A DNA stretch of 56,855 nt from a virus: the IMG/VR virus record IMGVR_UViG_3300008450_000047, positions 1 through 56,855 of that record; one strand, given 5' to 3'. A program made the position numbers and the translations under genes. Position 1 is the stretch's first letter; the number at the start of each line of letters is the position of its first letter. The notes under the pieces are model-generated. The model worked only from the letters and a program-made list of their open reading frames with translations, did not search any database and was not told the origin of the DNA. Of the stretch, positions 689-38,700 are shown piece after piece.

Positions 689-713
689 GATCAAAAAAAA
701 AACAATAACTATT

Positions 714-2868: not shown

Positions 2869-5247
2869 TTAATTTTGTGTTAGAATGAATTTAACTTTGA
2901 TATTGTCACCTAGAGAAGCAGGTGTATATCTTATATATGTTGTAGTATTTGCTCGGTCCGTATTGTCATATGAACTCCAAGTAGAACCGCCATCAGTTGA
3001 TTTTTCAAAAGTTCCTGTTGGAGAACCGGTGTTGTCATCAACCAGTAAATTGTTGGTCACTGCATCGTATAGCCTGACTCTTAAAGTTGGAACAGTTGAA
3101 CCCCAAGCTAACGCAAACCACCAAGCAAATCTCTTATTAACGTAATCTGAATATTTTATTGATGGTTGATAATGCACATCTGTTGAAGAATCGTCATACA
3201 GGCAAGTGACAGCATATATCCTTGTAGGGGCACATGCTTCACCCAAGGTGTCAAGTTCCAGCATGAACTGTATGTGTGTAGATGGCGAGAACGAACTCAA
3301 ATCACCGCTTTCAGGAACTTCGGTCCATGAACCAGTGTTATCGTCTATACCTGCAGTTCTGAAAAAAATCCTGAATGGGTCAGGCGGGAAGCCCAATTGA
3401 TAAGTTCCCAAATAATCCGAGTTTTCAACATATGCACGATAAAGTTTCGAAGCATTAGGAGTTGCCATTTTTGGTGTAATTACCCTTTCATTCGAATATG
3501 TGGCAAAATACCCATCACCACCCCCGGGGAAAATCAAAAGCCAATTTAAACCCGAGGTGGTTGTTACAGGTGCGGCAAAAAACAAGCCTGCTTCACTCCA
3601 AAGTGTCAAAGTCGCTTGTGGGAATAATCCGTCAACGGTACCTACAGGTGTATAACCCAATTTGTATCGGTTTAAGTTAGCGGCAAATATCTTGTCAAAA
3701 GGAAGTGTTCCGCTTGTGTTGTATTGAGCTGCGTAAACCCCAAACCTTTGTGTAGTCGTGGTAATCAAAAGCCTGTCCAATGTAGATGAATAATCAACCG
3801 AAGCCATTGATGACAATAAATTATAGGCGGCGTTTGCAAGACCTCCGGGTGGAATCTCAATCATTTGATCACTCAGAAACGATGAAGAGTTGTCTAAAAT
3901 TGTTGATTCCGTACATCTGTAAATTCTCGTTGTGGTTGCAAAATAAAAACTTTTTATACCTGAAGCGGATCCATGTTGAACTGCCACTATCCTACCGTTG
4001 TTCAATAGTGAAATTGTACCTGTAACTAATAGCGGAGTAGTTCTCAATGACAATGCCCCAGTTGCTCCATTGGCACTTGCTGGAGTCAATGAAGCTTTAA
4101 CGTTGTATTTTACAAGTCTGGCGGTTGTGTTTGTTACTTCTGAATTCAATAAATAAACATTATGTTCTGTTGCACTTACAGGTTCATCCATACCTATTCC
4201 ACCACCTAAAACACTCATGGCTGAATGCAAAGTATGGACACCGGAACCTGCGGTACTTGTATTAATAGGTGCTCCATTTATCGTTGCAGAAAGCGTAAAA
4301 GTATTTGCAGCCAATGAAGTTGAAGTCACATAATATGTAGTGTTCGCAACAAATCCCGTTGGGAGGGCACCTGTGGTTGTAAAAAAAACGGCATCATTCA
4401 GCCTCAATCCGTGACTAACTAATGTAACAACACCCGGAGAAGCTTGAGATATAGTTACGGTAGAAGGTGTAAAATCTTTCAATAGATATGAAGCCCTTAT
4501 GTTGTCTGTTGTTGTTGATTCAGTTATATTGTTTCCACCTAGTGCGAATGTTGAATAATTTAGACCCTTTATTATATATAATCCACCATTGTTTATAGTT
4601 GCATTTGTTTGTAAAAAATAAAGCCTGATTTCCTCTATGACATAAGATGAGCCTGCGGATACTGTAACAGTATTGCCTATGGTTAAACTTGTGTCTGAGG
4701 CAATTGCTGTAATTTCATACCAAGTGGATATTTGAGTTGGGTCGGTTGAACCGAATCCAATTCTTGCACCGACAGCAATCCTGTCAGTTTGAAAAGCTGT
4801 TCCTGACCCTGTTATGGTTGAAGATGTGGTTGCCGATACTGTTCCGCCTGTTGTTTCATAGACATAAGTCCTAAACCCTCTTACGGTTTTACTACCGCCA
4901 AGTTGTGTTCCTTGCAATGTTATAAAACCTTTCCAAGTTGTTGTGTTGGCATTTAGGTCATATTCAAATAAACCGAATTGTCTCGTTGCGGCTGCAGTAA
5001 CTGTGGTTGCCATAAAAACCCAGAATATATTATCCGACCATTTGTGAACATATGGATATGCATATGTGGAACCTGCTACATCAGTTATATTTACCATACT
5101 TGTTGGCAATAGACTTATGTAATTATCTTGAGCGGTTGCTCCTGTAAATTGTTTGTACAATGAACCTATCATTGTATAATCAGAATTGTAGGTTGTTATA
5201 CCTGTGGTCGATCCTGTAAAAATATGTTCTACTGCTACTTTTGCCAT
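2869..5247 (-). CDS. Tail fibre/adhesin-like structural protein
   Basis: This 792-residue protein is rich in Thr, Ser and Gly and probably beta-structured throughout. Two segments resemble modules seen in phage tail proteins: TITGSGTAFQTD through YEITAIASDTSLTIG (about 141-190), and SPGVVTLVSHGLRLND through TTYYVTSTSLAANTF (about 269-320). These modules usually sit in receptor-binding or fibre proteins. The gene starts one base after the stop of the fibre C-terminal module and is followed closely by a 51-residue ORF, so it is the fourth cistron of the receptor-binding operon. Base composition is visibly richer in G and C than the rest of the window, which suggests acquisition from another source. 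A virion-surface role is likely; the exact function is unknown. Confidence 0.75.
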   Translation of the reverse strand: MAKVAVEHIFTGSTTGITTYNSDYTMIGSLYKQFTGATAQDNYISLLPTSMVNITDVAGSTYAYPYVHKWSDNIFWVFMATTVTAAATRQFGLFEYDLNANTTTWKGFITLQGTQLGGSKTVRGFRTYVYETTGGTVSATTSSTITGSGTAFQTDRIAVGARIGFGSTDPTQISTWYEITAIASDTSLTIGNTVTVSAGSSYVIEEIRLYFLQTNATINNGGLYIIKGLNYSTFALGGNNITESTTTDNIRASYLLKDFTPSTVTISQASPGVVTLVSHGLRLNDAVFFTTTGALPTGFVANTTYYVTSTSLAANTFTLSATINGAPINTSTAGSGVHTLHSAMSVLGGGIGMDEPVSATEHNVYLLNSEVTNTTARLVKYNVKASLTPASANGATGALSLRTTPLLVTGTISLLNNGRIVAVQHGSASGIKSFYFATTTRIYRCTESTILDNSSSFLSDQMIEIPPGGLANAAYNLLSSMASVDYSSTLDRLLITTTTQRFGVYAAQYNTSGTLPFDKIFAANLNRYKLGYTPVGTVDGLFPQATLTLWSEAGLFFAAPVTTTSGLNWLLIFPGGGDGYFATYSNERVITPKMATPNASKLYRAYVENSDYLGTYQLGFPPDPFRIFFRTAGIDDNTGSWTEVPESGDLSSFSPSTHIQFMLELDTLGEACAPTRIYAVTCLYDDSSTDVHYQPSIKYSDYVNKRFAWWFALAWGSTVPTLRVRLYDAVTNNLLVDDNTGSPTGTFEKSTDGGSTWSSYDNTDRANTTTYIRYTPASLGDNIKVKFILTQN

Positions 5248-5248
5248 T

Positions 5249-5896
5249 TTATTTTTGAATTTTTAAAATTAATTGTACTCTTGTTAAAGTTTGTGCTGAA
5301 ACTACATAAAAACCAAGAATTTCATCTTCATTGAATGTTGTTGAATTCCATCCGGATAAATTCGAACTTTGATTTTTTATATTGTTGTTCAAATTTGGGT
5401 AACCTGAATTTATTATAGTATCTCCTGATGTAGGTGGATAATTTGCATAATCTGTTTTATAAATATCAATTTCGGTACTTCCTGAATTGTTTGATAATAT
5501 AGTCCAAGACAGAATTGTACCGCTATAAGGTAAATAGACGAAAGATTTAAGTCCTGAACTTATTGTTGCTGCACCACCAGTGTCTACTGTAAAGCTTAAA
5601 GTATCTATATTGGTTGAACTTGTTCCGGAACTACCTGAAGTTCCTGCTGCTCCTGAAGATCCTGATGAACCTGAACTTCCAGATTGACCAGATGATCCTG
5701 AACTACCTGATTCACCAGAAGAACCAGATGAACCTGAAAACCCTGAAGTTCCAGAGCTACCACTTTCGCCAGAACTTCCAGAACTTCCAGATATACCAGA
5801 AGATCCAGAACTACCATCAAATCCAGAACTACCAGAAGAACCTGAGCTACCACTTTGACCAGAACTTCCCGAACTACCTGAAGAACCAGATACACC
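5249..5896 (-). CDS. C-terminal fibre module after an in-frame TAA (no ATG)
   Basis: After the TAA at 5897-5899 the same reading frame stays open for 215 more codons to a TAA at 5249-5251. The first 90 or so residues are a collagen-like Gly-Ser-Ser repeat, and the last 120 form a globular domain with the elements LSWTILSNNSGSTEIDIYK, NYPPTSGDTI and LSGWNSTTFNEDEILGFYV. That pattern is a familiar C-terminal domain of tailed-phage fibres. There is no ATG in frame, so expression would need stop readthrough or a rare start. The stop codon lies one base before the next gene's ATG, as in an intact operon. It may be a readthrough extension, a gene broken by a recent nonsense change, or a sequencing error. 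Confidence 0.75.
   Translation of the reverse strand, partial: GVSGSSGSSGSSGQSGSSGSSGSSGFDGSSGSSGISGSSGSSGESGSSGTSGFSGSSGSSGESGSSGSSGQSGSSGSSGSSGAAGTSGSSGTSSTNIDTLSFTVDTGGAATISSGLKSFVYLPYSGTILSWTILSNNSGSTEIDIYKTDYANYPPTSGDTIINSGYPNLNNNIKNQSSNLSGWNSTTFNEDEILGFYVVSAQTLTRVQLILKIQK
5620..5896 (-). repeat. Collagen-like GSS repeat, third segment (after the TAA)
   Basis: Gly-x-y triplets, mostly GSS with GQS, GES, GFD and GIS variants, run from just after the TAA to the globular fibre end. The composition matches the two segments inside the main fibre ORF. Confidence 0.85.
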
Positions 5897-8800
5897 TTAC
5901 TGACCTTCGTTTTTATAAAATGTGTTTCCAGAAACATCTACAACAACATATCTCGTTAGAGATTCATCATTAGATAAATTAGCTACATTAAGTGTGTTTG
6001 TTGTAATGCCAGTAGAAGTTATTTGATTTATATTATATATATCAAAGCCACCAATTCCAAGATCTCCTGTCATCTGCCTACCACCATCAACTAAAATGTA
6101 TTGTTGATGATCATCTGATGTAAGACCTAAAAGATTTCCATGAACTGATGTGGCATTTACACCACTGGATTTAAAACCAATTACAGGTCTTATATCTTCA
6201 ATTTGAACAATTCCTGATTCACCATCTTTAATATAAATTGATGCTATAGAAACTACACCATCTGTAAAAAAATCGGGAGGTATAGGTAAAGGTGCGTCTT
6301 CTGTTTCAATTAAAGTAGCATACTCGTTTTGACCAAGAACTAAAAAATATTCTTCATTTATTCCATCGCCAACTACATACAAAGTATGTTTTGTGTAATA
6401 AGAGCTTGTAAGAGAAGATAGTGAATTTTGATTTGGATTGAATTGACTACTATTAACATATGTTGTAGCACTTGTTGTGAATCCTGATCCATTATTCCAA
6501 TACTGAGTAAAATTTATTGATGTTCCACCTGTAGGTAAAAAATTATTTTCTGATAACCAATAGTTTCCTGTACTAACATCCAATGTAAATGCTGTAGTTC
6601 CAGTAGTTACAATTGAACCAGTTGAAAATACTGGGCCAAGTGCTTGCCTGTTAAATGAAGATAATAAATTTGCTGTATGTTGTGCATTATATGGTGATTG
6701 ATCAATTAATTCAATGCCTGTTGAATTTGTAACAACTCTACCCATTATTATACTATAGAATGGATCAGGTAATCCAGAATTAGCGACTAAAGAACCATTA
6801 TTGGAAATATAAATATAATTATTTGTATTTGCAGACAATGTTATTTGATTATTATTCCAATCATATCTTTTTATAATACTATTATCAATTTGATCTGCTA
6901 CATATCCAAACCCTGATGTGGTGTTTATTGTTAAACCACTAACTATTGTAATTGTACCTCCGTTTAGAAGGCCCATTGAACTACTTTGAAAAATTAATGT
7001 TGAAGCATCCGTATGTGTTCCATCTGAAAATGTAACTGATATTTTTCTTGTAATATCATTTTCCCCATCTACATCATCAAGAAAATTCCAAAACACATTA
7101 TTGCTTACATTATATATTTTAGTATGATCAGATATACCTTGATATCTAAAGGATGCAGCAGGGTTTAGAATTTCAATATCGTAGGTGATAGAATTGTGAA
7201 TCATTGAACCTACAATCCTAGCAACTGGACCACCACCGGAATTAGGAATTTCAAACGACTTATTCCAATCTTGAATATCTAAATTGCCAGCTTCAAGTTC
7301 AGCTTGATCTGAAAGTTTTATTGCTGTAGAACCAGTCAATTGAGCACCTTCAAATTCACCTGTGTATAAATTAAGTCTTGCACCTAAACCATCTGCACTA
7401 TTACCAATCACATTATCATAGGTTGGAAAAAGATAATAGTTTTCCATATTGGCTAATGCCGAAAATGAATTTGTCGCATCTACACGAACTCCATAGGTAA
7501 AATCTCCATTAAAATCCATGTATTCACCATAGAATTTTGTGTCTTGGGTGGAAGATTTTACCCATACACCTATATCACAATCGTAAACAGAAATTTTGTG
7601 AGCTTGTGCAAAATCCCCTATATCGTCAACATATATAGCAGAATAACTAGAACCAGCACCTGATAAACTTAAAAAAGATATTTCATTATTTATTCCTAAT
7701 TTTATAATATGCTGTGAAGTAGAATTAGGAAAAATTTGTGTGGTTTGTATGTTGCTACCTACAATACTGACATAAGGTTTAGATGTAAGATCAATTTCAT
7801 TTTCAAAAAACTCACCCGGACCGACAGAAACCACAAACCTATTACTGCTAGAACTTCCTGTAATCCAATCTACAGCAGATTTAATAGATGAAAAATCTCC
7901 TCCTTTTTTTGCAACTATAATTCTTTTTGGGTCTTGATTAACTTCGTATAAAGGAGCATTAATTGGTATTTCGGTTTTTAAAAATGTATCAGCTCCATCT
8001 ATATGTCCAGTTGCTGAAGGATGTTCTACAATTATATCCTTTGTGTTATTTTCAAAATTTAAAGCACTTCCATATATACTAGGGGATGATCCTGTATTAG
8101 GAGCATAAATAGCTGTAGCCCATCTTTGGAAATTTACAGCAGTCAATCTTAAAGAAGCTCCATTTTCAACCCAGAAACCGGTACCAGCTGCAGCACCGAC
8201 AGCTTTTGTTAATAAACAACCATTAACAATAAAAGCACAGTTTGGTGCATCAGCTTTTGCAAAAATCAATCCTGTTGTAGTAGTTACACCACCATTAGTT
8301 GAAGTGACGTTTCTTAGTTGCATTCTGCCAATACCAGTACCGTCATTTGTTACTACAAAGCCGATAGTAAAAGGATAACCACCATATTTTACATTAGAAC
8401 ATTGCATTATGCAATTTCCACCACCAGTACCGACTGTTTTAGCGTGTGTGTAGTTTTCGCCGAATCTGACGTTTTCTACATATGAAATTGCATTTAATTG
8501 TGGAGTGGTCGAAGAAGAATATATGATAGCAGATGTTCCAGAAGCAGTAGAACCTTGAATTTGCATGTCTGAAATCATAGATTGATCTGCCATGAAAAAA
8601 ACTGTATTCGCAGAATTACTTGCTTCTACAATTGTTGCAGTACTATTGCTTCCTCTTACTGTGATCCAAGATTTCATAATAATTGGATCTTCGTAGTACA
8701 AGCCCGGATAAACTCTAACTTCCCATGGATTATCTTCAGTTGCTCCAGTAATACTATCGACTGCTAATTTTATTGAATTAAAATCTACATTACTACCACT

Positions 8801-10162
8801 GAGACCAACTGTGACATAATTTTCTATATCACCTACTAAACTATAAAAAGTTGTAGCTGAAATTGTGCCTGTAATAAATGTATTGCCAGAAATATATAAT
8901 TGTTGACCATCATATGTAAGTCCAGATTGAGCAATTGCAGTATCTGTTGTGTTATCAGATACTAATACTCTATAATTAGCAGGACTTTGAATGGCAGTAA
9001 AACCTGTACCAGATGATCCTGATGTACCAGAACTACCAGATGAACCAGATTCTCCAGAAATACCTGATGAACCAGAACTTCCGTTTGCACCAGATGATCC
9101 AGAACTTCCACTTAATCCTGCTCCTCCTGATGAACCTGAACTACCATTAACTCCAGAACTACCATTTATACCAGAACTTCCGTTTATTCCAGAGCTACCA
9201 TTTATTCCTGATGAACCAGATGTTCCATCATTTCCGTTGTTGCCAGAAGTACCAGAAGTACCAGAAGTTCCAGCTGAACCATCAGTTCCTGATACACCAG
9301 AAGATCCAGAACTTCCAGATTCCCCCGAAGTTCCTGAAGTACCATTTAATCCATTAAATACATATGATATAGAGAATTGTTCTCCTTGTATGGTACTTAA
9401 ATCGCTATTTATTAAAGTAAGATCAAAATCAAAATAAGTTCCATGATCTGTAGAGCCAGCAATTGTGTATAATCCATAATTTGATGGATTTGTGACATTC
9501 GTAATTTTAAAATAAACTAAGTTTCCTGTAACCCTTTTTAAAACATCAATAGTCTCTAACCAATCATATGAATCATTCGAGTTTATATCTAGTGTACTTA
9601 TGCTAATTCTAGTTACAGTACTAAACTTGACTTCATTTAGTATAAAATTTTGGTTTCCGGGGTTATTTGGAGCTTCTAGATCAGTTCTATAAAACCATCT
9701 TAAGCTATTAGAACCATCAAGACCATTGATACCTGATGTTCCAGATGAGCCAGAAGAACCAGAACTACCGCTAGAACCTCGACTCCCGGAACTTCCATTT
9801 GTACCAGACGTTCCAGACGAACCAGAGCTACCATTTATGCCCGAAGAACCTGAACTACCATTTATTCCAGAACTTCCTGATGAGCCTGAACTTCCGTTTC
9901 TTCCTGACGAACCAGCTGATCCAGAAGTACCTGATCCTGTTACTAATGCCCAAGAAGCATTTCCGAAAGCATCAGATTTAAGAAAATAACCATCTTGTGG
10001 GGAATCTTCGAATTTAAAACCATTTGAAACCGTCAGTCCTGATGTAAATTGAGGGTTTTCTGGAATGTCACCACCAATTCTATAAACAATACCAGTATCC
10101 AAATCAGATTGTAATACATAATTAAATGAATCTTTAATAAGTTGATTTGAAATATCTGACAT
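5897..10162 (-). CDS. Long tail fibre with collagen-like and beta-helix domains
   Basis: This 1421-residue fibre protein has, in order, an N-terminal virion-attachment region (1-75), a collagen-like Gly-Ser-Ser stretch (about 75-150), a beta domain, a second collagen-like stretch (about 270-385), and two related pectate-lyase-like beta-helix modules. These begin at the parallel motifs DFNSIKLAVDSITGA (about 465) and DFSSIKSAVDWITGS (about 755). A Ser/Thr-rich beta region follows, then the fibre motif DDHQQYILVDGGRQMTGDL (about 1348-1366). The ORF ends YKNEGQ at TAA, exactly where a third collagen-like stretch would begin; the frame stays open beyond it. The gene has its own TATTTATT box at 10182-10189. 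It is probably a long receptor-binding fibre, possibly with polysaccharide-binding or -cleaving activity in the beta-helix. Confidence 0.88.
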   Translation of the reverse strand: MSDISNQLIKDSFNYVLQSDLDTGIVYRIGGDIPENPQFTSGLTVSNGFKFEDSPQDGYFLKSDAFGNASWALVTGSGTSGSAGSSGRNGSSGSSGSSGINGSSGSSGINGSSGSSGTSGTNGSSGSRGSSGSSGSSGSSGTSGINGLDGSNSLRWFYRTDLEAPNNPGNQNFILNEVKFSTVTRISISTLDINSNDSYDWLETIDVLKRVTGNLVYFKITNVTNPSNYGLYTIAGSTDHGTYFDFDLTLINSDLSTIQGEQFSISYVFNGLNGTSGTSGESGSSGSSGVSGTDGSAGTSGTSGTSGNNGNDGTSGSSGINGSSGINGSSGINGSSGVNGSSGSSGGAGLSGSSGSSGANGSSGSSGISGESGSSGSSGTSGSSGTGFTAIQSPANYRVLVSDNTTDTAIAQSGLTYDGQQLYISGNTFITGTISATTFYSLVGDIENYVTVGLSGSNVDFNSIKLAVDSITGATEDNPWEVRVYPGLYYEDPIIMKSWITVRGSNSTATIVEASNSANTVFFMADQSMISDMQIQGSTASGTSAIIYSSSTTPQLNAISYVENVRFGENYTHAKTVGTGGGNCIMQCSNVKYGGYPFTIGFVVTNDGTGIGRMQLRNVTSTNGGVTTTTGLIFAKADAPNCAFIVNGCLLTKAVGAAAGTGFWVENGASLRLTAVNFQRWATAIYAPNTGSSPSIYGSALNFENNTKDIIVEHPSATGHIDGADTFLKTEIPINAPLYEVNQDPKRIIVAKKGGDFSSIKSAVDWITGSSSSNRFVVSVGPGEFFENEIDLTSKPYVSIVGSNIQTTQIFPNSTSQHIIKLGINNEISFLSLSGAGSSYSAIYVDDIGDFAQAHKISVYDCDIGVWVKSSTQDTKFYGEYMDFNGDFTYGVRVDATNSFSALANMENYYLFPTYDNVIGNSADGLGARLNLYTGEFEGAQLTGSTAIKLSDQAELEAGNLDIQDWNKSFEIPNSGGGPVARIVGSMIHNSITYDIEILNPAASFRYQGISDHTKIYNVSNNVFWNFLDDVDGENDITRKISVTFSDGTHTDASTLIFQSSSMGLLNGGTITIVSGLTINTTSGFGYVADQIDNSIIKRYDWNNNQITLSANTNNYIYISNNGSLVANSGLPDPFYSIIMGRVVTNSTGIELIDQSPYNAQHTANLLSSFNRQALGPVFSTGSIVTTGTTAFTLDVSTGNYWLSENNFLPTGGTSINFTQYWNNGSGFTTSATTYVNSSQFNPNQNSLSSLTSSYYTKHTLYVVGDGINEEYFLVLGQNEYATLIETEDAPLPIPPDFFTDGVVSIASIYIKDGESGIVQIEDIRPVIGFKSSGVNATSVHGNLLGLTSDDHQQYILVDGGRQMTGDLGIGGFDIYNINQITSTGITTNTLNVANLSNDESLTRYVVVDVSGNTFYKNEGQ
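9003..9356 (-). repeat. Collagen-like GSS repeat, second segment
   Basis: Gly-x-y triplets (GTS, GSS, GIN, GVS, GES) run from about residue 270 to 385 of the fibre. The antisense strand consequently shows a long Pro-Glu-rich ORF that should not be annotated. Confidence 0.85.
9712..9942 (-). repeat. Collagen-like GSS repeat, first segment
   Basis: Gly-x-y triplets (GSS, GIN, GTS, GRN) cover about residues 75-150 of the fibre, between the N-terminal region and the first beta domain. Confidence 0.85.
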
Positions 10163-25140: not shown

Positions 25141-28100
25141 ATGGACGCTAATCAAGTCAAACAATTAATTAAAGAATTAAAAGCTGCTGGTACATTAACA
25201 GAAGAACAAGCAAAGCTTTTGAGAAGTCTTGAACGTGAGCAAAGAAAAGTTCAAAAAAGTACAAGAGACACTCAAGCTTCCATGGAGGATTTCAACAGAG
25301 GTTTGGATGAAGTTGGAGAAGCCTTTGGTCTGCGTTTAAGTCAGGCATTTGATACAATTGAAGTAGAAGTCGAGCAAGCGAAAAGAGATATTGCTACGAT
25401 GTTTGATGATCTTGAAGCTACAGCTCCAGAAATTGCTGCTAGTATTGGCGAAGAATTCAATTCAGCTTTTAGAAATGCTTTACCAGATCCGAAAGATATA
25501 CAAGCTCAAATAAATTTAAATTCATTAATAAGTGATTTTAAAGCATCATTCCCAGAAATGGGTAATGAAATGCAAAAAGCTTTCAAGACTGGAGATATTG
25601 CAACTTTCTATAAGAAATTTGGAGACGAAGGGATGAAGAGGCTCCGTGATTTTCTAGGAGATAAAAAAGGATTTCAGGGAATGAAAGATTATTTCAAACC
25701 CGGAGGAGATGGAGATAAAGGAACAAATAGATTTAGGCAACAATTAGAATCCTTTGAACCGGCAGCACAAAAAACAACTAAAGTTATAATGAATTGGAAC
25801 AATTTGTTCAGACAAATTGGTGACAATATTTTAAATTATATTGGGTTTGGTAAGATAATTCAAAATCTTATGGATTTTGATAAAAAATTATCTAATATAA
25901 AAAGAGAGTTCCAGATTCCAACTGCTGGTTTTTCTAAAGCATCAAGTTCAATGTCTGAACTTGTAAAGTATGGGGCCCAATTCGGTTTAGACAATGAAAA
26001 AGCTTTTACATTAGTAAAAAATATTGGTGAATACGCTAAATCAACAAACGTTCAAAATTTAGCTGCTACTGCAAAACAAGTTGCTGCAGTGTCAGACGCA
26101 ACTGGTATAGCATTAGAAAATGTCGGTCAATTGACTGGTCAAATGATGTTTTATGGGGCTAATGCTGAAAAAGCAAGAAAAGCTTTTGTAGATATTTCTA
26201 AAGCATCAACAAGGTTTGGAGTTAATGTAACGGCTGTAGCTAAAAAATTCCAAGATGTTTTTCCAAGATTTGCTAGAATGGGATTCAAAGCTGGTGAAGA
26301 ATCACTTGCTAGAATGGCAGCAAAAGCCGAAAAAATGGGCACTGATATTAATAAATTATTAGATGCTTCAGATAAATTTTTAGATATCAATGCAGCTCTT
26401 GAAGCATCAGCTGATTTGAGTTTGCTTGGTGGTGCTGCAGCACAGGTTTCATTTATGGATTTAATGAAAGCTGCTCAAGATGGTCCAGAAGCTATGGATA
26501 AGCTTATGACCCAAATGACTTCCGATATTGGAAAGTTAAATAAGGATGGTAAGTTGCAACTGTCTATGATCGATAGACAGAAAATTCAAAAAATTGCTGA
26601 AGCATCAGGAGAAGATGTAGAATCTGTAACAAATAGAATAAATTCAAGATTATCAGATGCTGCGAAAAAAGCGGCAATTCCACCCGGTGTGTTTAATGCA
26701 TTGAGTGATGACGAAAAAGATTTTTTACTTTCTAAAGCTGTGAAACAAGGTGGCAAGTGGAAATTTGAAGGGTTGGAGGGAATGCAAGATCTAAAAAATG
26801 TTTCTAAGGGAAGTATTCAAGCAATGATGAATAAATCAAAATCAGATGCTGAAAATATGGAGAAAGCTGCGAAGAGCAGACAAGCCTTAGAAGAAAAATT
26901 AAATAATTTAGCTAACGAGGTATTAGCCACATTCACAATGTTTCAACCTTATTTAGAAATGTTGAAACATGCCCTTGATAAATTGAGAGCAATTTTCGTT
27001 AGAGTGGGCAATGTTATTGATAAAGTATTTGGAGCTGAAACTGGTAAATGGGTTAAAGCAATGGCTTTGTTAGGTGGTATCCTTATGTTAACGTTTGGGC
27101 CTTCAGCAATGGCAAAATTTGCAGGTATTTTATTTAGAGGAATTACTTCACCTCTAAAAATGTTGTCTGGTTTAGGATCACAAATAAAATCTGCCTTTGC
27201 TGGTGTTGGTGGTGGTGCAAGTAAAAAAGCTACAGAAACATTAGCAAGTAAGGTAACTACACAAACCCCAGACATCGGCGGAAAAATGAAAGGAATGAAA
27301 ACGCCTCCAACAATGTTGCAACAGTTTTCAAAAATAAATCCTGCTCAAATTTTATCTTTAGCTGCAGCTTTTGTTGCCTTGGGAATCGCAATGCTATTAA
27401 TTGGGAAAGGAATTCAATTTGCTGCAACAGGTTTCGCAACTTTAGTTAATTCATTCAATAATGCTAAAAATGCAGGAGCAGCATTAGGTGCAATTGCAAT
27501 AGTTATGGGTGGTTTTGTTGCTATGGTTTATATTCTTGCTACTGCAAGTTCTATTGCTGCAATACCGTTGTTAGCTCTAGGTGCTGCTATGTTAATGCTT
27601 GGAGCTTCAGTTTATTTAGCAGCAAAAGGATTTTCTATATTGGTTCCAGCTATTATATCTATGGGTAAAAATATAGGAGCCACTTTTAAAGGTGCAGCTG
27701 GGTTAATTGCTTTAGCAGCAGCTTTAGTTATAATTTCTCCTGCATTATTAATTTTTGGAGCTGCAGGTTTAATTGCTGCTCCGGCAATGATTGCATTTGG
27801 ATATTTTCTACGTGGATTAGGTGCAGCAAAAGGTGTGAATCCAAAAATTATTTCTCAGATAGGAGATTCAATGGGCTCTATTGCTTGGGGACTTACTAAA
27901 CTTGGTTTGGTAGCTGGTCCTGCTGCACTGGCAATGGTTTCAGCTGGTGCTTTGATGGTTGTTGCCGTAGCATTAAAAAATATTTCTGCTGTTGATGTGA
28001 AAAAAGTAAGTCAATTTGGTCAAAGTCTTGCTTTAATATCAATGTCAATGATAAAAGGGTTAGTTAAATTGGCTTTGGTTTCACCATTTGCAGTATTAGC

Positions 28101-31100
28101 TATGGCTTCTGCTGTAAGTATAAATATAATTTCACAAGCATTATCAAGAATTAAAATAATTGATCTCGCAAAAATGCAAAACTTTGGTGACAGTATGGGC
28201 AAGGTTGGTTCTGCTATGATCAAAGGGTTGATAAAATTAGGCTTAGTAAGTCCTTTCACTGTTCTAGCAATTGTTTCAGCTGGAGCAATTAATTTAATAA
28301 GTAGAATGTTAGCAGATGTAAAAATTGTTGACCTTAAAAAAATGCAAGCATTTGGTCAATCATTGGCAGCAGTTTCTGCATCTTTTATTTTTGGACTTAT
28401 AAAGTTAGGTTTGGTTAGTCCATTTGTTGTTTTAGGCGTTGTATCAGCAGCTGGAATAAATTTAATTTCTAGATTATTAAATAATGTACCAGTATTAAAC
28501 CCAAAAAACTTGGGAATGACAGCTTCAACGATGGCTTCTACTTCCGGTAAGTTTGCAAAAGCAATGTTAAAATTAGGATTAGTTTCAGTTCTTACTCCTT
28601 TAGCGTTACTAGCAACATTGGGAATTTTAGGTGTAACAAAAATGTTAAAAGCTGTGCCTACACTTAATGCAAAAACATTAACTACAACTGCAGGAACAGT
28701 TTCTAAAGTTGTTTGGCCATTTACAAAAGCATTTTTAAAATTACAACCATTAGCAGCATTTACTCCATTAGCTTTAGTAGCTGCTGCGGGTATTTTAGGA
28801 GTAACAAAAATGTTGAAGGCAGTTCCAATGTTGAATCCTGCATTTTTGATAGTCACATCTTCAGTATTATCAAAAATTGCTTGGCCTTTTACAAAAAGCT
28901 TAATCAAGCTCGGAGCACTTTCCGTTTTTACTCCATTTGCAATATTAGCAGCGTTTGGAATATTGACAGTAACTAAAACACTTGCTAAAGTCACACCTTT
29001 AAATGCTGCAATTTTAATAACAACCGCTTCAATACTAAATACCGTATCTGGTAAATTTGGAAAAAGTTTATTTAAATTAGGGTTATTAGGAGTGTTTGCA
29101 ATACCTGCAATTTATGCTGCTAGATCTTTGGTTAGTATAACTAGTTCTTTATCTAAAATTACTCCATTGAACATGGCAATTTTGATAAATACAGCTAATG
29201 CTTTGAGTTTATCTTCTTCTGCATTTTCAAAAGGATTAAAAAAATTAGGATTCATTGGTTTCTTAGCAATACCCGCTATGATTGCAGCTAAATCTATTTC
29301 AATAATAACTAAATTTCTTGCTAATGTTACTCCTCTAGATCCAGTAAAGTTGGTGATGACTGGAGTTGCAATTTCTCTTTCGGCTCAAGCATTTTCGAAA
29401 GGTATGAAAAAATTAGGATTTATAGGATTTTTTGCTGTACCAGCATTGATAGCTGCTAAATCTATTTTATTAATTACAAATATTTTATCTAGAGTCCCAG
29501 TATTAAATCCCGGAATTTTAATTACAAACGCTATAACTCTTTCTATAATTTCTACACCATTATCAATGGGACTCAAAAAAATAGCATTATTAAGTCCCGT
29601 TGCTGCATTATCATCAATATCTTCAATTTTTATTCTAAAAACTGTTAGACTATTAAATCAAATACCACTTTTGAGTCCAGTAAAATTATTGACAACTGCG
29701 TTAACGTTATCAGCAATGTCTACTCCCTTGGCCAAAGGTTTATTCAAAATATCTTTACTGACATCAGTAGCAATGTTAGCCTCAATGTCATCATTGTTTA
29801 TTTTAAAAGCTACTAAATATCTTGCAGGAATTCCAATGTTGAATCCAATAAAATTAATTACTACTGCAGTTACTTTGGCTACGATGTCTGGACCTCTGTC
29901 TAATGGATTAAAGAAAATTGGATTAACAGCACCATTTGCAAAACTTGCATCCAACGCTGCTCTTAATATTTTTAAAACAGCAACATTTTTGAGAGGTGTA
30001 CCATTTTTATCCCCAACAAGATTTTTGACTCTTGCATATATTTTATCAAATACTTCCGAACCAATTGCTAAAGGTCTATCTAAATTAAGTAATGCAGCAT
30101 CTGTTGCAAATAAAGCTGCACAAGCAGCTTCCGGTCTAAGAAGAGTAACATTTATATTATTAATGACACTTCCGATAAATGCGGGAAAATTATTGAACAT
30201 AGCTAGTGTGATGACTTCGACCATGGGACCAATATCAAAAGGTCTACTAAAATTATCAGCAGCTGGATTTCTTGCAAATAGAGCTGTAAAAGCTGCTAAT
30301 AGTTTATTGAAAATCACAAAAACACTATCAAATTTACCTGTAGTAAGTCAAAGTGCATTAAAACAATTAGCAACAACTTTAAGTAGTACTGCTTGGAAAT
30401 TGACTAAAGGTTTAGGGAAATTTGCTGGTATTACAACTGTAATTGGTCCTGCAGTAGTTGTTGCCAAAGGTATCAACAGTATTTCCAGAAATTTATCATC
30501 TATGCCTGCGATAAACGCTTCGAGTTTGATAAATTTAGCCTCTACTTTATCTAAAACTTCTGGAAAACTTTTTTGGGGTTTAACAAAGTTTGCAGCTTCA
30601 TCAGTTCCAATTTTACCAGCAATTGCAGTAGCCGAAGGAGTTAAATTTATTACAAAGCAACTTTCTCAGGTTGTTCCAATAGATACAAAAAAATTAAGCA
30701 ACATAGCATTTTCATTAGCATTTATTTCTCCAGTTTTGACTGCGGGTTTTAAAACATTTGCTAAAATGGGTTCTAGTGTCATCGGTGCTATTTTTGCAGC
30801 AAAAGGCATAGTATCAGTAACAAATAGTTTAAAAAATGCCCTACATATTAATTCTAAAAAATTAATCAATATAGGTGATACTTTATATTATGCTTCTCCT
30901 AATTTGAGCAGAGGGTTCATAACTTTCAGTAGAGCTGGTTATTATGCTGGACTTGCAATTGTTGCTGCAAAGTCTTTGGTATTTATTACAAGATTATTAA
31001 GAGGAACAGTTCCTCTTAATTTTGCTAAAATGTTCAATATAGGCTTTGTATTAGCAACAACATCTTCTTCAATTGTAGTTGGAATTAAAAAACTCAGCTC

Positions 31101-32658
31101 CGGTATGCCATTTGTAATACCTGCTATATCAGCTGCAAGAGGTTTAGTTCCAATAAGTAAATTTTTAAGTCAAGTTGTTTTTGTTCCATTAAAAAATATG
31201 CAGCAATTGGGAACAGTTTTAAATAATACCTCCGGTGCTATAGTAAAAGGTCTAGTTAAATTTTTAGGAATAAGAGCACTTGTTAGTCCAGCGATTACAT
31301 CTGCAAACAGATTAGTTCAACTTAGTAAGATTATAAATCAAATTCAACCTATTGTTGCAAAAAATCTAAATAAATTAGCTAGTGTTACAAGTTCTACAAG
31401 TTGGAAATTAGGTAAAGCACTATTTAAATTTGCAGGAATTAGAGCAGTTACAACACCAGCAATATCTGCTGCTAGAGGTTTAGTAACTCTTACACAAGTA
31501 ATAAATCAAATACAGACAATTTTTAATAAAAATTTATTACAATTGTCAACAGTTCTAGGTTTTAGAAGTATTCCTTTGTTAAAAGCAATAGTCAAATTTT
31601 CATCAATTACACCTTTTGTTGCACCCGCAATTTTGACTGCAAAAGGCCTTGTAAGTTTAACAAAAAATATAAATCAAATACAAACAATATTTTTCAAAAA
31701 TTTATTAAGTTTAGGTACAGTTCTTACTGCAACATCTGGTAGATTGATAAAAGGTTTGATCAAATTTTCTGCAGTTGCATTTTTTACAGGTCCGGCAATT
31801 GTAAGTGCTATAGGGGTTAGAAAATTAAGCAGAATTTTATTAGGTATAGTTACTCTATCTCCTGTACCATTGATTACACTTGCTAGTCTATTAAGTGCTA
31901 CAGCGAGTACTATGATTTCTGGATTGGTTAGATGGTCTATGATGATACCATTTATTATTCCAGCAATTTTCTCAGTTCTCGGAGTCACAAGAATATTCAG
32001 ATCGTTAGCATCAATAGCTAATTTAAAAATTGATGGTATTTTAGCTCAAGTTCCTATAATTAATTCTTTAATTGCACCAATTATGAGGTTTTCTATGATA
32101 GGAATAGTAGCACCTCAATTAATTGCTGCAGGATTTGCATTAATGATTTTAGGAAAGAGTTTAAAATCAGCTACAAGTGGATTTACATCTTTTTCATTAG
32201 TTCCTTGGCCTTTATTCGCAAGTGCCCTTCCAACTATTAGTGGATTAACATCTACGTTAATATCATTTGGAACCAGAGGTTTGACTGCTTCTTCAGGTAT
32301 AATTTCAATGGCATCTAGCTTGAATGTATTAGGAAGATCTCTAAATAATGTTTCTTCAAGCTTTGGAATTTCAACCAAATCTATGGCTGATTACAACAAA
32401 GAAAAAGATAGACTAAAAACTGTAGCTACTGCTCCAAAACCGGGGGGTAATAATGAAATAAGTTTAATACAGAGAGCAAAAGCAGCTGCAGCCTTAGGAA
32501 CAGATTTAACAACCACAAGAAGAGAGGGTGCAGTAGCAGGAGGTAGAGAGACTGCTGGAACACAAGTTGTTCAGATAAAACCTATACAAATAGACTTGAA
32601 ATTGAACGGAAGACAGTTGCAGCAGATAATTGTCGAGGCTAATTATAATAGAACTTAA
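25141..32658 (+). CDS. Giant tail tape measure protein with 56-residue repeats
   Basis: The protein has 2505 residues. Residues 1-650 are helical and charged, with coiled-coil character near the N-terminus and a tape-measure-like globular region. Hydrophobic Ala/Gly/Leu-rich segments begin near 640 and grow dense from about 740. Residues 953-2296 are 24 consecutive repeats of exactly 56 residues without insertion or deletion, preceded by a 52-residue version. Each repeat has a polar start, KGLxKL-like and P-x-x-A elements, and a hydrophobic end such as ITKxLxxVPxLN. The C-terminus is a short polar segment. Position before baseplate genes, length and hydrophobicity identify the tape measure. 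By the usual rule of about 0.15 nm per residue the tail would be about 375 nm long. Confidence 0.88.
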   Translation: MDANQVKQLIKELKAAGTLTEEQAKLLRSLEREQRKVQKSTRDTQASMEDFNRGLDEVGEAFGLRLSQAFDTIEVEVEQAKRDIATMFDDLEATAPEIAASIGEEFNSAFRNALPDPKDIQAQINLNSLISDFKASFPEMGNEMQKAFKTGDIATFYKKFGDEGMKRLRDFLGDKKGFQGMKDYFKPGGDGDKGTNRFRQQLESFEPAAQKTTKVIMNWNNLFRQIGDNILNYIGFGKIIQNLMDFDKKLSNIKREFQIPTAGFSKASSSMSELVKYGAQFGLDNEKAFTLVKNIGEYAKSTNVQNLAATAKQVAAVSDATGIALENVGQLTGQMMFYGANAEKARKAFVDISKASTRFGVNVTAVAKKFQDVFPRFARMGFKAGEESLARMAAKAEKMGTDINKLLDASDKFLDINAALEASADLSLLGGAAAQVSFMDLMKAAQDGPEAMDKLMTQMTSDIGKLNKDGKLQLSMIDRQKIQKIAEASGEDVESVTNRINSRLSDAAKKAAIPPGVFNALSDDEKDFLLSKAVKQGGKWKFEGLEGMQDLKNVSKGSIQAMMNKSKSDAENMEKAAKSRQALEEKLNNLANEVLATFTMFQPYLEMLKHALDKLRAIFVRVGNVIDKVFGAETGKWVKAMALLGGILMLTFGPSAMAKFAGILFRGITSPLKMLSGLGSQIKSAFAGVGGGASKKATETLASKVTTQTPDIGGKMKGMKTPPTMLQQFSKINPAQILSLAAAFVALGIAMLLIGKGIQFAATGFATLVNSFNNAKNAGAALGAIAIVMGGFVAMVYILATASSIAAIPLLALGAAMLMLGASVYLAAKGFSILVPAIISMGKNIGATFKGAAGLIALAAALVIISPALLIFGAAGLIAAPAMIAFGYFLRGLGAAKGVNPKIISQIGDSMGSIAWGLTKLGLVAGPAALAMVSAGALMVVAVALKNISAVDVKKVSQFGQSLALISMSMIKGLVKLALVSPFAVLAMASAVSINIISQALSRIKIIDLAKMQNFGDSMGKVGSAMIKGLIKLGLVSPFTVLAIVSAGAINLISRMLADVKIVDLKKMQAFGQSLAAVSASFIFGLIKLGLVSPFVVLGVVSAAGINLISRLLNNVPVLNPKNLGMTASTMASTSGKFAKAMLKLGLVSVLTPLALLATLGILGVTKMLKAVPTLNAKTLTTTAGTVSKVVWPFTKAFLKLQPLAAFTPLALVAAAGILGVTKMLKAVPMLNPAFLIVTSSVLSKIAWPFTKSLIKLGALSVFTPFAILAAFGILTVTKTLAKVTPLNAAILITTASILNTVSGKFGKSLFKLGLLGVFAIPAIYAARSLVSITSSLSKITPLNMAILINTANALSLSSSAFSKGLKKLGFIGFLAIPAMIAAKSISIITKFLANVTPLDPVKLVMTGVAISLSAQAFSKGMKKLGFIGFFAVPALIAAKSILLITNILSRVPVLNPGILITNAITLSIISTPLSMGLKKIALLSPVAALSSISSIFILKTVRLLNQIPLLSPVKLLTTALTLSAMSTPLAKGLFKISLLTSVAMLASMSSLFILKATKYLAGIPMLNPIKLITTAVTLATMSGPLSNGLKKIGLTAPFAKLASNAALNIFKTATFLRGVPFLSPTRFLTLAYILSNTSEPIAKGLSKLSNAASVANKAAQAASGLRRVTFILLMTLPINAGKLLNIASVMTSTMGPISKGLLKLSAAGFLANRAVKAANSLLKITKTLSNLPVVSQSALKQLATTLSSTAWKLTKGLGKFAGITTVIGPAVVVAKGINSISRNLSSMPAINASSLINLASTLSKTSGKLFWGLTKFAASSVPILPAIAVAEGVKFITKQLSQVVPIDTKKLSNIAFSLAFISPVLTAGFKTFAKMGSSVIGAIFAAKGIVSVTNSLKNALHINSKKLINIGDTLYYASPNLSRGFITFSRAGYYAGLAIVAAKSLVFITRLLRGTVPLNFAKMFNIGFVLATTSSSIVVGIKKLSSGMPFVIPAISAARGLVPISKFLSQVVFVPLKNMQQLGTVLNNTSGAIVKGLVKFLGIRALVSPAITSANRLVQLSKIINQIQPIVAKNLNKLASVTSSTSWKLGKALFKFAGIRAVTTPAISAARGLVTLTQVINQIQTIFNKNLLQLSTVLGFRSIPLLKAIVKFSSITPFVAPAILTAKGLVSLTKNINQIQTIFFKNLLSLGTVLTATSGRLIKGLIKFSAVAFFTGPAIVSAIGVRKLSRILLGIVTLSPVPLITLASLLSATASTMISGLVRWSMMIPFIIPAIFSVLGVTRIFRSLASIANLKIDGILAQVPIINSLIAPIMRFSMIGIVAPQLIAAGFALMILGKSLKSATSGFTSFSLVPWPLFASALPTISGLTSTLISFGTRGLTASSGIISMASSLNVLGRSLNNVSSSFGISTKSMADYNKEKDRLKTVATAPKPGGNNEISLIQRAKAAAALGTDLTTTRREGAVAGGRETAGTQVVQIKPIQIDLKLNGRQLQQIIVEANYNRT
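27997..32028 (+). repeat. 24 tandem 168-bp units encoding 56-residue repeats
   Basis: Units start every 168 bases from 27997, with the last starting at 31861. I checked the phase at units starting at 27997, 28165 and 31861. Units are diverged at the DNA level but constant in length. Neighbouring units are often most alike, for example those sharing ILGVTKMLKAVP. Confidence 0.9.
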
Positions 32659-32711: not shown

Positions 32712-32715
32712 ATTG

Positions 32716-35700
32716 ATGATTGAGAATTTTCCTTTTGAGTCTGAAGAAGAATATAGACAAAGGGTCAAATTTGAGGAGTTTTTTGGTAATTATACAGATT
32801 CAGTAAGGCAAATACTGATAAGTAAAAATGTACCTAATCCCAAGAATTTATACGACGCTTACAAGATAAGAAAGGATAATCTTGCAAGAAATCAAACTAT
32901 TTCGGCCAATTTAGATGAAAATTCTCAATATTTAAGGTCTGTTTTACTATCAAAAAATGTTGATAATATAATTGATCCAGATAAAATTTCTAAAGAAATT
33001 AGAGAAACCCTTATTTCAAAAAATATATTATTAAATACTGATAAAGATCTAGAAGAATTATCTGAAAAGACCAGATTATCACTTTTAGCTAAAAATGAAT
33101 CTCAGCTTTATGGTAAATTAGATAGAACCGGAGCAGCTGCAAGAAGGAATTTGCTACCAAAAAATGAAATTGTCAATCCAGATAGCATAGAAAGATATGC
33201 TAATGTTACAAGATTTAATTTATTAAGTAGAAATTTGACTGATATTGCTGATGTTGAAAAGGCGGCAGAAAATTATCGAAATGCTCTGTTAAATAAAAAT
33301 AATTACGAAGGAACTAATCAGATATTAGATTCTAGTTCGGAAGTTCAAAGAAATAATTTATTAGCAAAAAATAGTAATTTCAACTCTTTTGATATTGATA
33401 AGTCATCCGAAGAAATTAGAAGTAGTCTGCTTTCAAAAAATCAAATTATTGATAATGTAAAAAATAATGATTTCTCAGTAGTAAGGCAATTTCTTCTAGC
33501 AAAAAATAATTTTGAAGAAATAAATCTTGATCTTCTTGCTTCAGAAATAAGAAATAATACTCTAAATAAAAATTATTATGATGAAAGTATAGATAATAGT
33601 AATGATTATAATAATTACAGACTTTCATTACTTAGTAAAAATGAAAATAAAGTTACAGATTTAGATGAACTATCTAAAGAAAATAGAGATTATCAGCTTA
33701 AATTCAATCAAATTTCAAAAAACGTTTCGAATGAATTAGCCGATCAGGAAGAGATAAGAAAAAATTTATTAGCAAAAAATCAAACCAACCCTAAGGATCT
33801 AGATCAGGAATCAGAAACCTTAAGAAATAAATTAATTTCCAAGAATTTATCTAATTTAATAAACATTGATTTGTTATCTATAAATCAAAGATCAAATTTA
33901 TTAAAGAGAAATGACTATACAGAAGCAAATGGTGAATTAGATAATATTTCTGCAATAATAAGAAATAGCACTCTGGCTAAAAATGAAAATTCCGAACGAA
34001 ACATTTTAGAAGAAACTGCTATTAAAGAAAGACTCAGAATTTTGAGTAAAAATCTTAAGAATGTTTTTGATATAGAAGGATTGGCTAGTGAAATTAGGAA
34101 CAATCTTCTTTCAAAAAACACTTTTGAGGGAGGTGTAAACAACTTACTTGACGAATCTTCAATAATTCAAAGATTAAACTTATTAGCTAAAAACGAAAAT
34201 TTAAATAGAGAGGATTTAGAATTAATTGCTAATAGAATTAGAACTACTCTTGTAGCAAAAAATCAAGTTATAGATTCTGCAGATAAAAATTTTGATAATA
34301 CAAGAAAATCATTATTAGCAAGAAATCAAAATGATTTAATTGACCTTGATAGTATCGCTAAAGATTTTAGAAATGCGTCGTTAAATAAAAACCAAATTGA
34401 TGCATTTTCTATAGATGAAGTATCTGAAAAGATAAGGACATCTCTAATAAATAAAAATAATATAAAATTATTTGATTTAGATAAACTTGCTGAAAATAAT
34501 AGGAATGCTCTTCTTAGTAAAAATGAAATTATTTCGGATAATGATGTTAATAGTGATCTAATAAGATCAAGTTTATTAAGTAAAAATCAAACTAAAACTG
34601 TTGATCTTGATGAAGAAGCCATATCTAGTAGAAATAGGCTTATTTCAAAAAATGTAAGTAATTTAATTGGAATAGATGATTTATCAATAAATCAAAGATT
34701 TAATTTATTGAGTAAGAATCAAAATAAAGAAATTGATTTAGATAAATTAGGAGAAATACAAAGAAATAATATTTTAAAATATAATCAATTTGTAGATATT
34801 GTATCTAATTTTGAAGAGGTTGAAATATTAAGAAAAAATTTACTTGCAAGAAATCAAAATCAATTAATAGATCTTGATGAACAAGCAAAAATCCAGAGAT
34901 TAAATCTTTTAAATACAAATCAGAATTTAAATTCTATAAATTTAGAAAGTGAAGTAGAAAACTATAGAAAAGAATTACTAGCCAAAAATCAATCAGTATA
35001 TAAAGATATTGATGAGGAAGCAATACCTCTTAGAAATAGTCTAATTGCTAAAAACGTAAGTAATTTAATTAACATAGATATTTTATCTATAAATCAGAGA
35101 TCTAATTTATTAAGTAAAAATTATTATACTGAAGCAAACGGTGAATTAGATGAATTATCCAGTAAAATAAGATTGCCATTACTCTCTAAAAATCAGAATT
35201 TCGGAGATATTAGTCTCGATGAAGTTGCATCACCAGAAAGAATAAGACTTATCACTAGAAATCTTAAAAAATTAATTGATTTAGATTTAGCAGCTATTCC
35301 TTATCGTGAACAATTATTGGGTAAAAATAATTATGACGATACTTTTAATAGAATTCTTGAGGAAATTGCTTTAAATCCGAGAAAAAATCTTTTAGCTAAA
35401 AATAAAGAAGATTTTTCGGAAGAACTGGAAACAATTGCTAGAATAACCAGAACTAATCTTCTAACTAAAAATTATGATATCAATAAAATAATTGATACTA
35501 CATTAGACACTAATGCTTTAGAGATTAGAAGAAATTTATTAGCTAAGAACGATGTAGTAGAAGCTAATTTAGATTTAATTTCATTAAAAGCAAGAACCAA
35601 TTCTCTTTCAAAAAACATATCATATGCAAGTTTAGATCTAGACCTTTATGCTTCACAATTCAGAGAAGAATTAAAAAGTAAAAATGTACCTTCTTTAAAT

Positions 35701-38700
35701 GATTTAGATAAACTTGCAAATTTATATAGACAAAACCTTTTAAAATCTAATGATCCCGGATATACATCTGTGGGTACGGATGAATTGATAGAGATTACAA
35801 GAACTAATCTATTAAGTAAAAACAAAGGTAAAATAATAGATATTGAATTTGAAGCACTGACTGTCAGAAATAGATTAATTTCTAAAAACATCGATGCTTT
35901 AATTGATATTGAAAAAATATCAAATGTTCAAAGAGAAAACCTTATCAGTAAAAACAAATATACTGAAGCAAATGGTTTACTTGATGAACAAGCTGGTGTC
36001 ATTAGAAATTCTCTTCTTAATAAAAATGTAGAAGAACTATTCAATCTAGATGCCTTAGCATTAGATATTAGAAGAAATTTAGTTAGTAAAAATCAAATAA
36101 CATATTTTGATTTAGATGCTGAAGCAAAAGATATTAGAAATAAATTACTTGCATCTAATTCTGATACCCCTATAGATTTGGATAAGTTAGGATTACAAAT
36201 CAGAACTTTAACATTAAGTAAAAACGAAAGTAAAAGTATCGATCTTGATAAAATTTCAGCTCAAGAAAGAGATGATTTATTATCAAAAAATGTTGAAACA
36301 AGAATAAATTTAGATTTAATTTCTGAACAATACAGAAAATTGCTTTTAAGTAGTAATGTATTTAAATTATTTGATTTAGATGCAGAGGCTACAGAAATCA
36401 GAAATAGATTAATATCAAAAAATTTAGATAAACTTTTTGATCTGGATGAGCTGGCAACTATTAATAGAACATCTTTATTGAAGTTCAATGAAATTTTACC
36501 AGTCGACCTAGAAAAGGATACAAATAAATTAAGAAATAAATTATTAGCTTTTAATAAAGCTCAATTTATAGATTTAGATACTTTGGCTATACGTCAAAGA
36601 GAAGATCTAATTCAAAAAAATCAAATAAAAGAATTTGATTTAGATGCTTTAGCTCTATCGATAAGAAACACATTACTTACAAGAAATGTTTATGAAATAA
36701 TAAACCTAGATAATTTAGCTTCTCAAGAAAGAAGTATACTTTTATCAAAGAACGAAACTAAAGTAATAGATCTAGATAGACTTGCAAATGAAATTAGAAA
36801 TAATCTAGTTACTAAAAATGTTTATGGTTTAATTGATTTAGATATTTTAGCTAGTTCGGAAAGAAAGAATTTATTAAGTAAAAACGAAATTACATTATTT
36901 GATCTTGATGCTAATGCAGAACCTTTAAGAAATAGTTTATTATCATTCAACCAAAATCAATTTATTGATCTTGATACGATTGCTTTACCTATTAGAACTA
37001 ATACGTTAGCTAAAAATGATACTAAGCAAATTGATTTAGATGCTACTGCAACTGTTCAAAGAAATAACATTTTAAGTAAAAACATAGCATCTAGCATAAA
37101 TCTAGACGCAGAAGCGGAAATTTTAAGAAAATTATTAACTGAAAAAAATCAACCTCAATTTCCTGATTTAGACAAAGAAGCTGCACCTTACAGAAAAGAT
37201 TTATTAGCGAAAAATGCAGAAATTGCTATCATAAATTTAGATGCAATAGCTGCTGCAAATCGTTCAGATATTTTACAGAAAAATGTTGAAAATATTATTG
37301 ATATCGAGAGATTAGCAACACAATCTCGAACAACATTATTAAGTTTCAATCAACCGCAATTTATTGATTTAGATCAGATCTCTGTCGAGCCAAGACAAAA
37401 TGCACTCAATAGCAATAAAAATATTAAGATAATAAATCTTGATGCAATTGCTGCTGAAAACAGAGATGATATTTTAGCTAAAAATAAAACAATAAGAGTT
37501 CAAGATCTTGATCAGGTTGCGGTGCCATTAAGAGCAAATTTATTAGCATTCAATATTCCGGTTTTTGGAAGTTTGGATGCAGTTGCAGAGCCAATAAGAA
37601 AACAATATGAGGCAGCAAATTCTAGAATTTTACAAATTGATTTAGATGCAACAGCTCTTCCAATAAGAACATCGTTATTAAATGCTAATGTAGAAAGATT
37701 ATTTGACCTTGATCAAATAGCAGCCGGAAACAGAAGTGATCAACTCTCTAAAAATTTAGAAACAACCATTGATTTAGATAGCTTAGCTACATCAATAAGA
37801 TATGGTCTTTTAGCAAATAATACGTCTGATTTGCTAATTGATTTAGATTCTCAAGCACAACAAGAAAGATTATTATTATTAGCTAAAAATGTATCAAATT
37901 TATTAGTTGATTTAGATGCAGAAGCACAAGGTTTAAGAACTAATTTATTAGCATTTAATCAACCACAATTTGTTGATTTAGATGCCGAAGCTATTAGTCA
38001 AAGAAATAATTTACTTTCAAAAAATCAACCATCAACTATTGATTTAGATACTAATGCTATAAGTTCAAGAAATAATTTATTAGCATTTAATCAACCACAG
38101 TTTATTGATCTAGATAGTGTAGCAACACCCATAAGAACTAATATGCTTTCCAGCAATGTTCCAAGTATAATTGATTTGGATTCATTAGCTGCAGTCGAGA
38201 GATTAGATTTATTATCATTCAATATACCAACATTAATAGATCTTGATCAAGTTGCTCAATCTGAAAGACAAAATTTATTAGCATTTAATGTTGCTCAATT
38301 TATTGACCTTGATACAGTAGCTGCTCCTCAAAGAGCAAATTTATTAGCAAACAATCAAGCTACAATAATTGATATAGAAGGAATCGCTGATCAAGAAAGA
38401 AATAATTTATTAGCAAGTAATCAACCTCAATTTGTAAATCTTGATGAAGAAGCTGAACCATACAGATTAAGTTTACTAGCAAAAAATAATCCGGATCCGG
38501 ATGGAAGTCCCTTGGGCACAAATGTGTTTATTGGAGGGACCAGCGTTTTCTTAGGAGTATCAAATCTTGATATTAACGGAGCAATAATTAGAGCACTTAA
38601 TAAGCTAAAGAATCAATTTATAGCAACATTAGATAGCCCTGATACTGATTTTCCACATTGGAATTTGTTAGGTCCTGCATTTAATCAAAATTTAAGAGGT

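Follow-up and report, generated by a model that had tools for sequence, protein, structure and literature searches.

Introduction

The A1 protein of Qβ is a readthrough coat extension of an RNA phage, and the broken side-fibre gene of phage lambda, stf, is otherwise intact downstream of its lesion. That lesion is a frameshift, which disrupts stf in the laboratory lambda strain (PMC10721106). Low-adsorption mutants arose rapidly from lambda with side fibres, 19 of 21 clones being mutated in stf, and from these mutants the authors proposed that the fibres are disposable and pass through cycles of gain and loss (PMC2762979). In crAss-like phages the stop codon itself has changed its meaning, TAG being reassigned to Gln (code 15) in structural genes, as described in PMC9523058.

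Here we analyse a fibre locus in a virus record of 56,855 bases, which we call the window in its full length. Like the stf gene of lambda (PaPa), the locus holds a tail-fibre gene that is broken by one small lesion and has intact forms elsewhere (PMC10721106, PMC2762979). The lambda frameshift belongs to a laboratory strain. The lesion here lies in an uncultured phage, known from five metagenome-derived records, and is an in-frame stop that removes only a distal module. With Qβ A1 the locus shares an upstream structural ORF, a stop and a long in-frame extension, but the stop is UAA, is absent from relatives and comes with no stimulator that we could find nearby. Stop-recoding phages likewise carry an in-frame stop codon inside a structural gene, as described in PMC9523058, whereas here the stop is a single TAA in a genome that uses TAA as its normal terminator and in which no suppressor tRNA was found. 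In domain content the gene resembles the collagen-like fibres of Caudoviricetes with exchangeable tips, having Pfam Collagen matches, a conserved head and variable distal modules, and its tip domain is also found in collagen-repeat phage proteins. The 50 comparable relatives of this kind keep the head and the distal part in one frame, and the lineage of the window does not. A search of titles and the beginnings of abstracts in the open-licence literature returned no published account of such a split fibre.

Organisation of the fibre locus

A head maturation protease, baseplate proteins, DNA polymerase III alpha, a DnaB-like helicase and ribonucleotide reductase are recognisable in the window, a gene set that suggests a contractile-tailed phage. 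The fibre gene lies on the minus strand. Its ORF of 1421 amino acids (5900–10162) has collagen-like segments in the first third, where four stretches match Pfam Collagen (PF01391), followed by a conserved region of about 1000 residues, here termed the head; the ORF matches tail fibre PHROGs. The sequence-only reading had described this ORF as ending at a TAA (5897–5899) behind which the same frame stays open, and both features are reproduced on the minus strand, where 215 further sense codons follow the stop. The TAA occupies the first Gly-X-Y triplet past the head. The detached module behind it consists of 96 codons of collagen-like GSS repeat (5609–5896, minus strand), which match PF01391, and a 119-residue beta-rich tip domain (5252–5608), and is terminated by a second TAA (5249–5251). 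A single base (5248) lies between the end of the module and the ATG of the next gene at 5247, again as first described; this minus-strand gene (2869–5247) encodes 792 amino acids and has no Pfam or PHROG match. The module has no in-frame ATG, which bears out the original reading, and no GTG either, so that its sole common start codon is a TTG at module codon 169.

At the base composition of the window, an open run of 215 codons has a random probability of about 2e-8. Open in-frame stretches of at least 60 codons follow the stop in 9 of 146 ORFs of a 222-kb sister record, G001 (ORFs of at least 150 amino acids in all frames, overlapping ones counted), and the fibre ORF is the only one of the nine that lacks a start codon in the first 33 codons of the open stretch. 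Both parts of the split gene carry Gly-X-Y repeats that score well above the PF01391 cut-off of 27.2 bits, with 83.2 bits for the fibre ORF and 58.7 bits for the module.

The last 119 codons, the tip, match phrog_35197 (E 3.5e-18) and phrog_10330 (E 8e-13). The predicted tip structure is rich in beta strands, with a mean pLDDT of 75.5 from an alignment of three sequences. In BFVD the model matches predicted proteins of uncultured Caudovirales, and two of the best four are named for a collagen triple helix repeat. A fold search against the PDB gave no match at E ≤0.001 (best 0.011), and therefore no fold is assigned from it. The whole module has no match among GenBank phages at 1e-5, and the tip alone matches 12 records at 28–33% identity (E 3e-4 to 1e-3). 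No further copy of the tip is present in G001 at E 0.01, and none of 54 pattern-matching stretches in bacterial and archaeal genomes was confirmed as a relative.

The tip domain is also carried by short proteins. Cyanophages S-CAM1 and S-CAM3 encode hypothetical proteins of 239 amino acids (L110 2638–3357 and L111 2638–3357) that start with ATG, have a different, non-collagen N-terminal half and end in the tip domain at 32% identity; these could be named as tip-domain carriers. Among 30 distinct IMG/VR tips, 24 lie on ATG-started ORFs of 226–243 amino acids with a non-collagen N-terminal half, two are fused to collagen (L005 and the contig of L014) and four are cut by the end of their contig.

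One near-clonal lineage carries the stop

The TAA at 5897–5899 is also found in four other IMG/VR records from other data sets (loci L001–L004 in records G001–G004). Around the stop, these records match the window without exception for at least 2 kb downstream and, upstream, over about 6 kb with a single mismatch, and the 648 nt that make up the module and its end are identical in every copy of the locus that contains them. In the stretches that were compared, private SNPs relative to the window occur in each of G001, G002 and G003; the 11.9 kb compared for G004 show one difference, at a site where all four records differ from the window. A sequencing error, one of the options raised by the sequence-only reading, does not account for a stop that recurs in four other records, three of them with SNPs of their own; sequencing or assembly error is thus ruled out as far as the assemblies show. 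The five records are one near-clonal lineage, and they are replicate observations, not independent evolutionary events. Their occurrence in five data sets suggests that the phage is viable without the distal part. As a separate observation, an intergenic stretch of the window (701–709) has two extra bases and one SNP relative to the otherwise near-identical G001.

Related fibres run through the stop position

We then compared the locus with relatives of the fibre gene. In L005, which is 69% identical to the window in the head and 73% in the tip, the head is joined to collagen by a Gly-X-Ser triplet, and no stop intervenes. The L005 fibre retains the tip of the window, likewise ends in TAA, and is followed by a homologue of the next gene, whose start is conserved. 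Four further loci (L081, L082, L084 and L085) have heads that are 73% identical to that of the window, with zero differences among the four, and show the same Gly-X-Ser junction with no stop before the collagen; in L081 the collagen part is much longer than in the window and has a different end. This related fibre (L081 3535–11445) is an open frame of 2636 codons with 351 consecutive Gly-X-Y triplets. Read in triplet register, the position of the TAA at 5897–5899 is a sense codon, Ser, in both of the nearest relatives.

Used as a query, the head alignment retrieved 62 related loci, from which we set aside seven contigs that end too early, four loci of the window lineage and L254, whose match stops at query residue 296. 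All 50 remaining comparable loci, with 36 distinct head ends, continue past the position of the TAA, by at least 139 codons as obtained by subtraction, a value that presumes equal head lengths and an approximate place of the stop, the last 10–55 head residues being unaligned in most loci. Where the match reaches to within four residues of the border, all nine loci continue into Gly-X-Y repeats; these nine represent four distinct head ends (the L197 group, L201, L202/L206 and L212), and the two closest relatives, at 69% and 73%, are included. Comparison at this codon had been proposed as a check, and no relative examined has a stop there. Since the comparable relatives are all uninterrupted, the split is derived and, as far as we searched, confined to the lineage of the window. 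The sequence after the head is highly variable among relatives, which fits an exchangeable distal cassette.

We scanned 254 loci, of which 136 have collagen-like frames and many are overlapping copies, for a stop followed by collagen, and the pattern occurred only in copies of the window fibre gene. The stops flagged in L104 and L049 were rejected, since an ATG lies two or three codons past each of them and the frames behind are separate genes.

The detached module is intact

The tip of the window aligns over its full length to the tip of L005, with a one-residue insertion that keeps the frame, and the 215 codons of the module contain no second stop or other lesion. Relative to L005, pN/pS is 0.328 in the tip and 0.303 in the head, where blocks of 119 codons range from 0.13 to 0.53. 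When amino-acid changes in the tip are polarised by 14 outgroups drawn from the 30 distinct IMG/VR tips, 9 fall on the window branch and 15 on the L005 branch, with 7 unresolved; single outgroups assign 2 to 9 changes to the window branch and 7 to 11 to the L005 branch. A cruder comparison of bit scores points the opposite way, the window tip having a mean of 67.0 bits against outgroups and the L005 tip 74.4 bits, with the window higher in 1 of 19, but L005 itself is among the 19 and several loci have no hit; for these reasons it is superseded by the aligned test with 14 outgroups.

At the sequence level, the detached module shows no decay, and it appears to have stayed under constraint through most of its divergence from L005. 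An intact module fits either a recent stop or a module still in use. Our search found no relative between near-identity and about 73% that would date the stop or separate these two.

Explanations for the split

The split is probably an ordinary nonsense change that cost one lineage the distal shaft and the tip of its long fibre. Of the options offered by the sequence-only reading, a recent nonsense change is the best supported, by relatives that are whole and a module that has not decayed; programmed readthrough found no specific support, and error is ruled out at the assembly level. The ancestral gene would have encoded a single fibre, with an anchor bearing collagen-like shafts, the conserved head, another collagen-like shaft and the beta-rich tip. 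In the window lineage, translation would end at the nonsense change that lies in the first Gly-X-Y triplet past the head, so that virions would carry fibres, presumably trimers, that lack the distal shaft and the tip. The head keeps its own frame, the cut falling at a domain border, and the 215 detached codons have so far escaped decay; the truncated fibre may be made and tolerated. The tip is a probable receptor-binding cassette, and its loss may be favoured or harmless, by analogy with the disposable side fibres of lambda, if other adhesins, for instance the LamG-like protein encoded next to it, provide binding. Speaking against truncation, nothing in the module is broken and the tip changes no faster than its homologue, as if it were still made. 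The stop also falls at the head–collagen border, a place that a random nonsense change would rarely hit, although this point is post hoc. Codons one step from a stop number 73 of 215 in the module and 410 of 1421 in the fibre ORF.

Programmed or tolerated readthrough of the UAA would give a minority of fibres the full collagen shaft and tip, and would account for the still-intact module. We regard this as unlikely, and equally improbable is the broader proposition that a dsDNA phage with a genome above 200 kb obtains two fibre forms from one gene, most tipless and a few tip-bearing, through readthrough of an in-frame UAA placed at the head–collagen border. The undecayed frame and tip over 215 codons and a stop common to all five records agree with such use, but the stop occurs in no relative examined and is shared only by near-identical records. 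In favour of a leaky stop, a G follows the fibre TAA, the sole such case among 32 TAA stops of the window and one of 14 among 191 in the ORFs of G001, in which G makes up 14.3% of bases; a G would be equally expected from a stop that arose inside coding sequence before a glycine codon. An imperfect inverted repeat (5455–5477 and 5898–5920; 23 nt, 74% complementary) touches the TAA with one arm, while its second arm lies within the module at a distance of 420 nt; repeats of this kind often arise by chance, as this one probably did. RNA structure 3′ of the TAA had been suggested as a check; none of four folds predicted around the stop scores better than shuffled sequence (z −0.64 to +0.13), in a model of local, pseudoknot-free pairing. 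TAA, known as the least leaky stop, terminates most genes here: 32 of 36 in the window and, among ORFs of G001 chosen mechanically, 191 of 237. A tRNA search found none in the window and only Arg, Met and Asn tRNAs in the 222 kb of G001, a possibly incomplete record, and thus no suppressor tRNA in either.

A switchable state, with mixed stop and sense populations in which point mutations remove and restore the tip as the ecology shifts, is about as improbable as readthrough. The module does lie intact behind one lesion, and gain and loss cycling was proposed for lambda stf (PMC2762979), but the five records, all of one near-clonal lineage, have the stop in 5 of 5 and the sense form in none, and a pattern search that allowed any codon at the junction returned three records of the lineage, all with TAA, and nothing else. 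Also against a switch, the longest homopolymer within 60 nt is a run of five A, and the eight pairs of inverted repeats in 4900–6900 (12–28 nt, 74–92%) are all short or imperfect, for which reason an inversion switch was rejected. A reverse transcriptase (PF00078), as part of a diversity-generating element, was found in neither of the two records searched, G001 and G008; 3 of 14 control genomes were positive.

It is very doubtful that the module yields a working tip protein of its own, whether through a non-ATG start or through reinitiation. The tip domain does end short stand-alone proteins, as in the cyanophages and most of the distinct tips above, but these begin with ATG and their N-terminal half is not collagen, while the module offers the lone TTG at codon 169. 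Least probable of all is that the stop is an artefact of sequencing or assembly, or a reassigned codon, and we found nothing in favour of either. Five records have the same codon, and codon reassignment, which the original reading had already held to be unlikely, is rejected with TAA as the usual terminator of the window's genes.

If the nonsense change is the correct explanation, the locus looks like the equivalent, in nature and in an uncultured phage, of the broken lambda stf gene: a lineage that recurs in five data sets after the tip of its giant fibre was lost. Should reads from the same sites hold both codon states, the idea of disposable fibres would become testable in nature. The locus also carries a warning for annotation: where a long frame without ATG follows a phage fibre gene, it can be a severed tip instead of a recoding element.

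Other features of the genome

On the plus strand of the window, 32713–40458 encodes a protein of 2581 amino acids that consists mostly of a repeat of about 22 residues around a motif of the L-L-x-K-N type, with 60 motif matches spaced mostly by 22–24 residues or about multiples of this, and no PHROG match. The protein of 2505 amino acids encoded at 25141–32658 (plus strand) has seven motif matches spaced by multiples of 56 residues; from its size and place, we would guess that it is tape-measure-like. In G001, an ORF of 146 amino acids (L099 18534–18974, minus strand) resembles a small heat-shock protein of the alpha-crystallin type.
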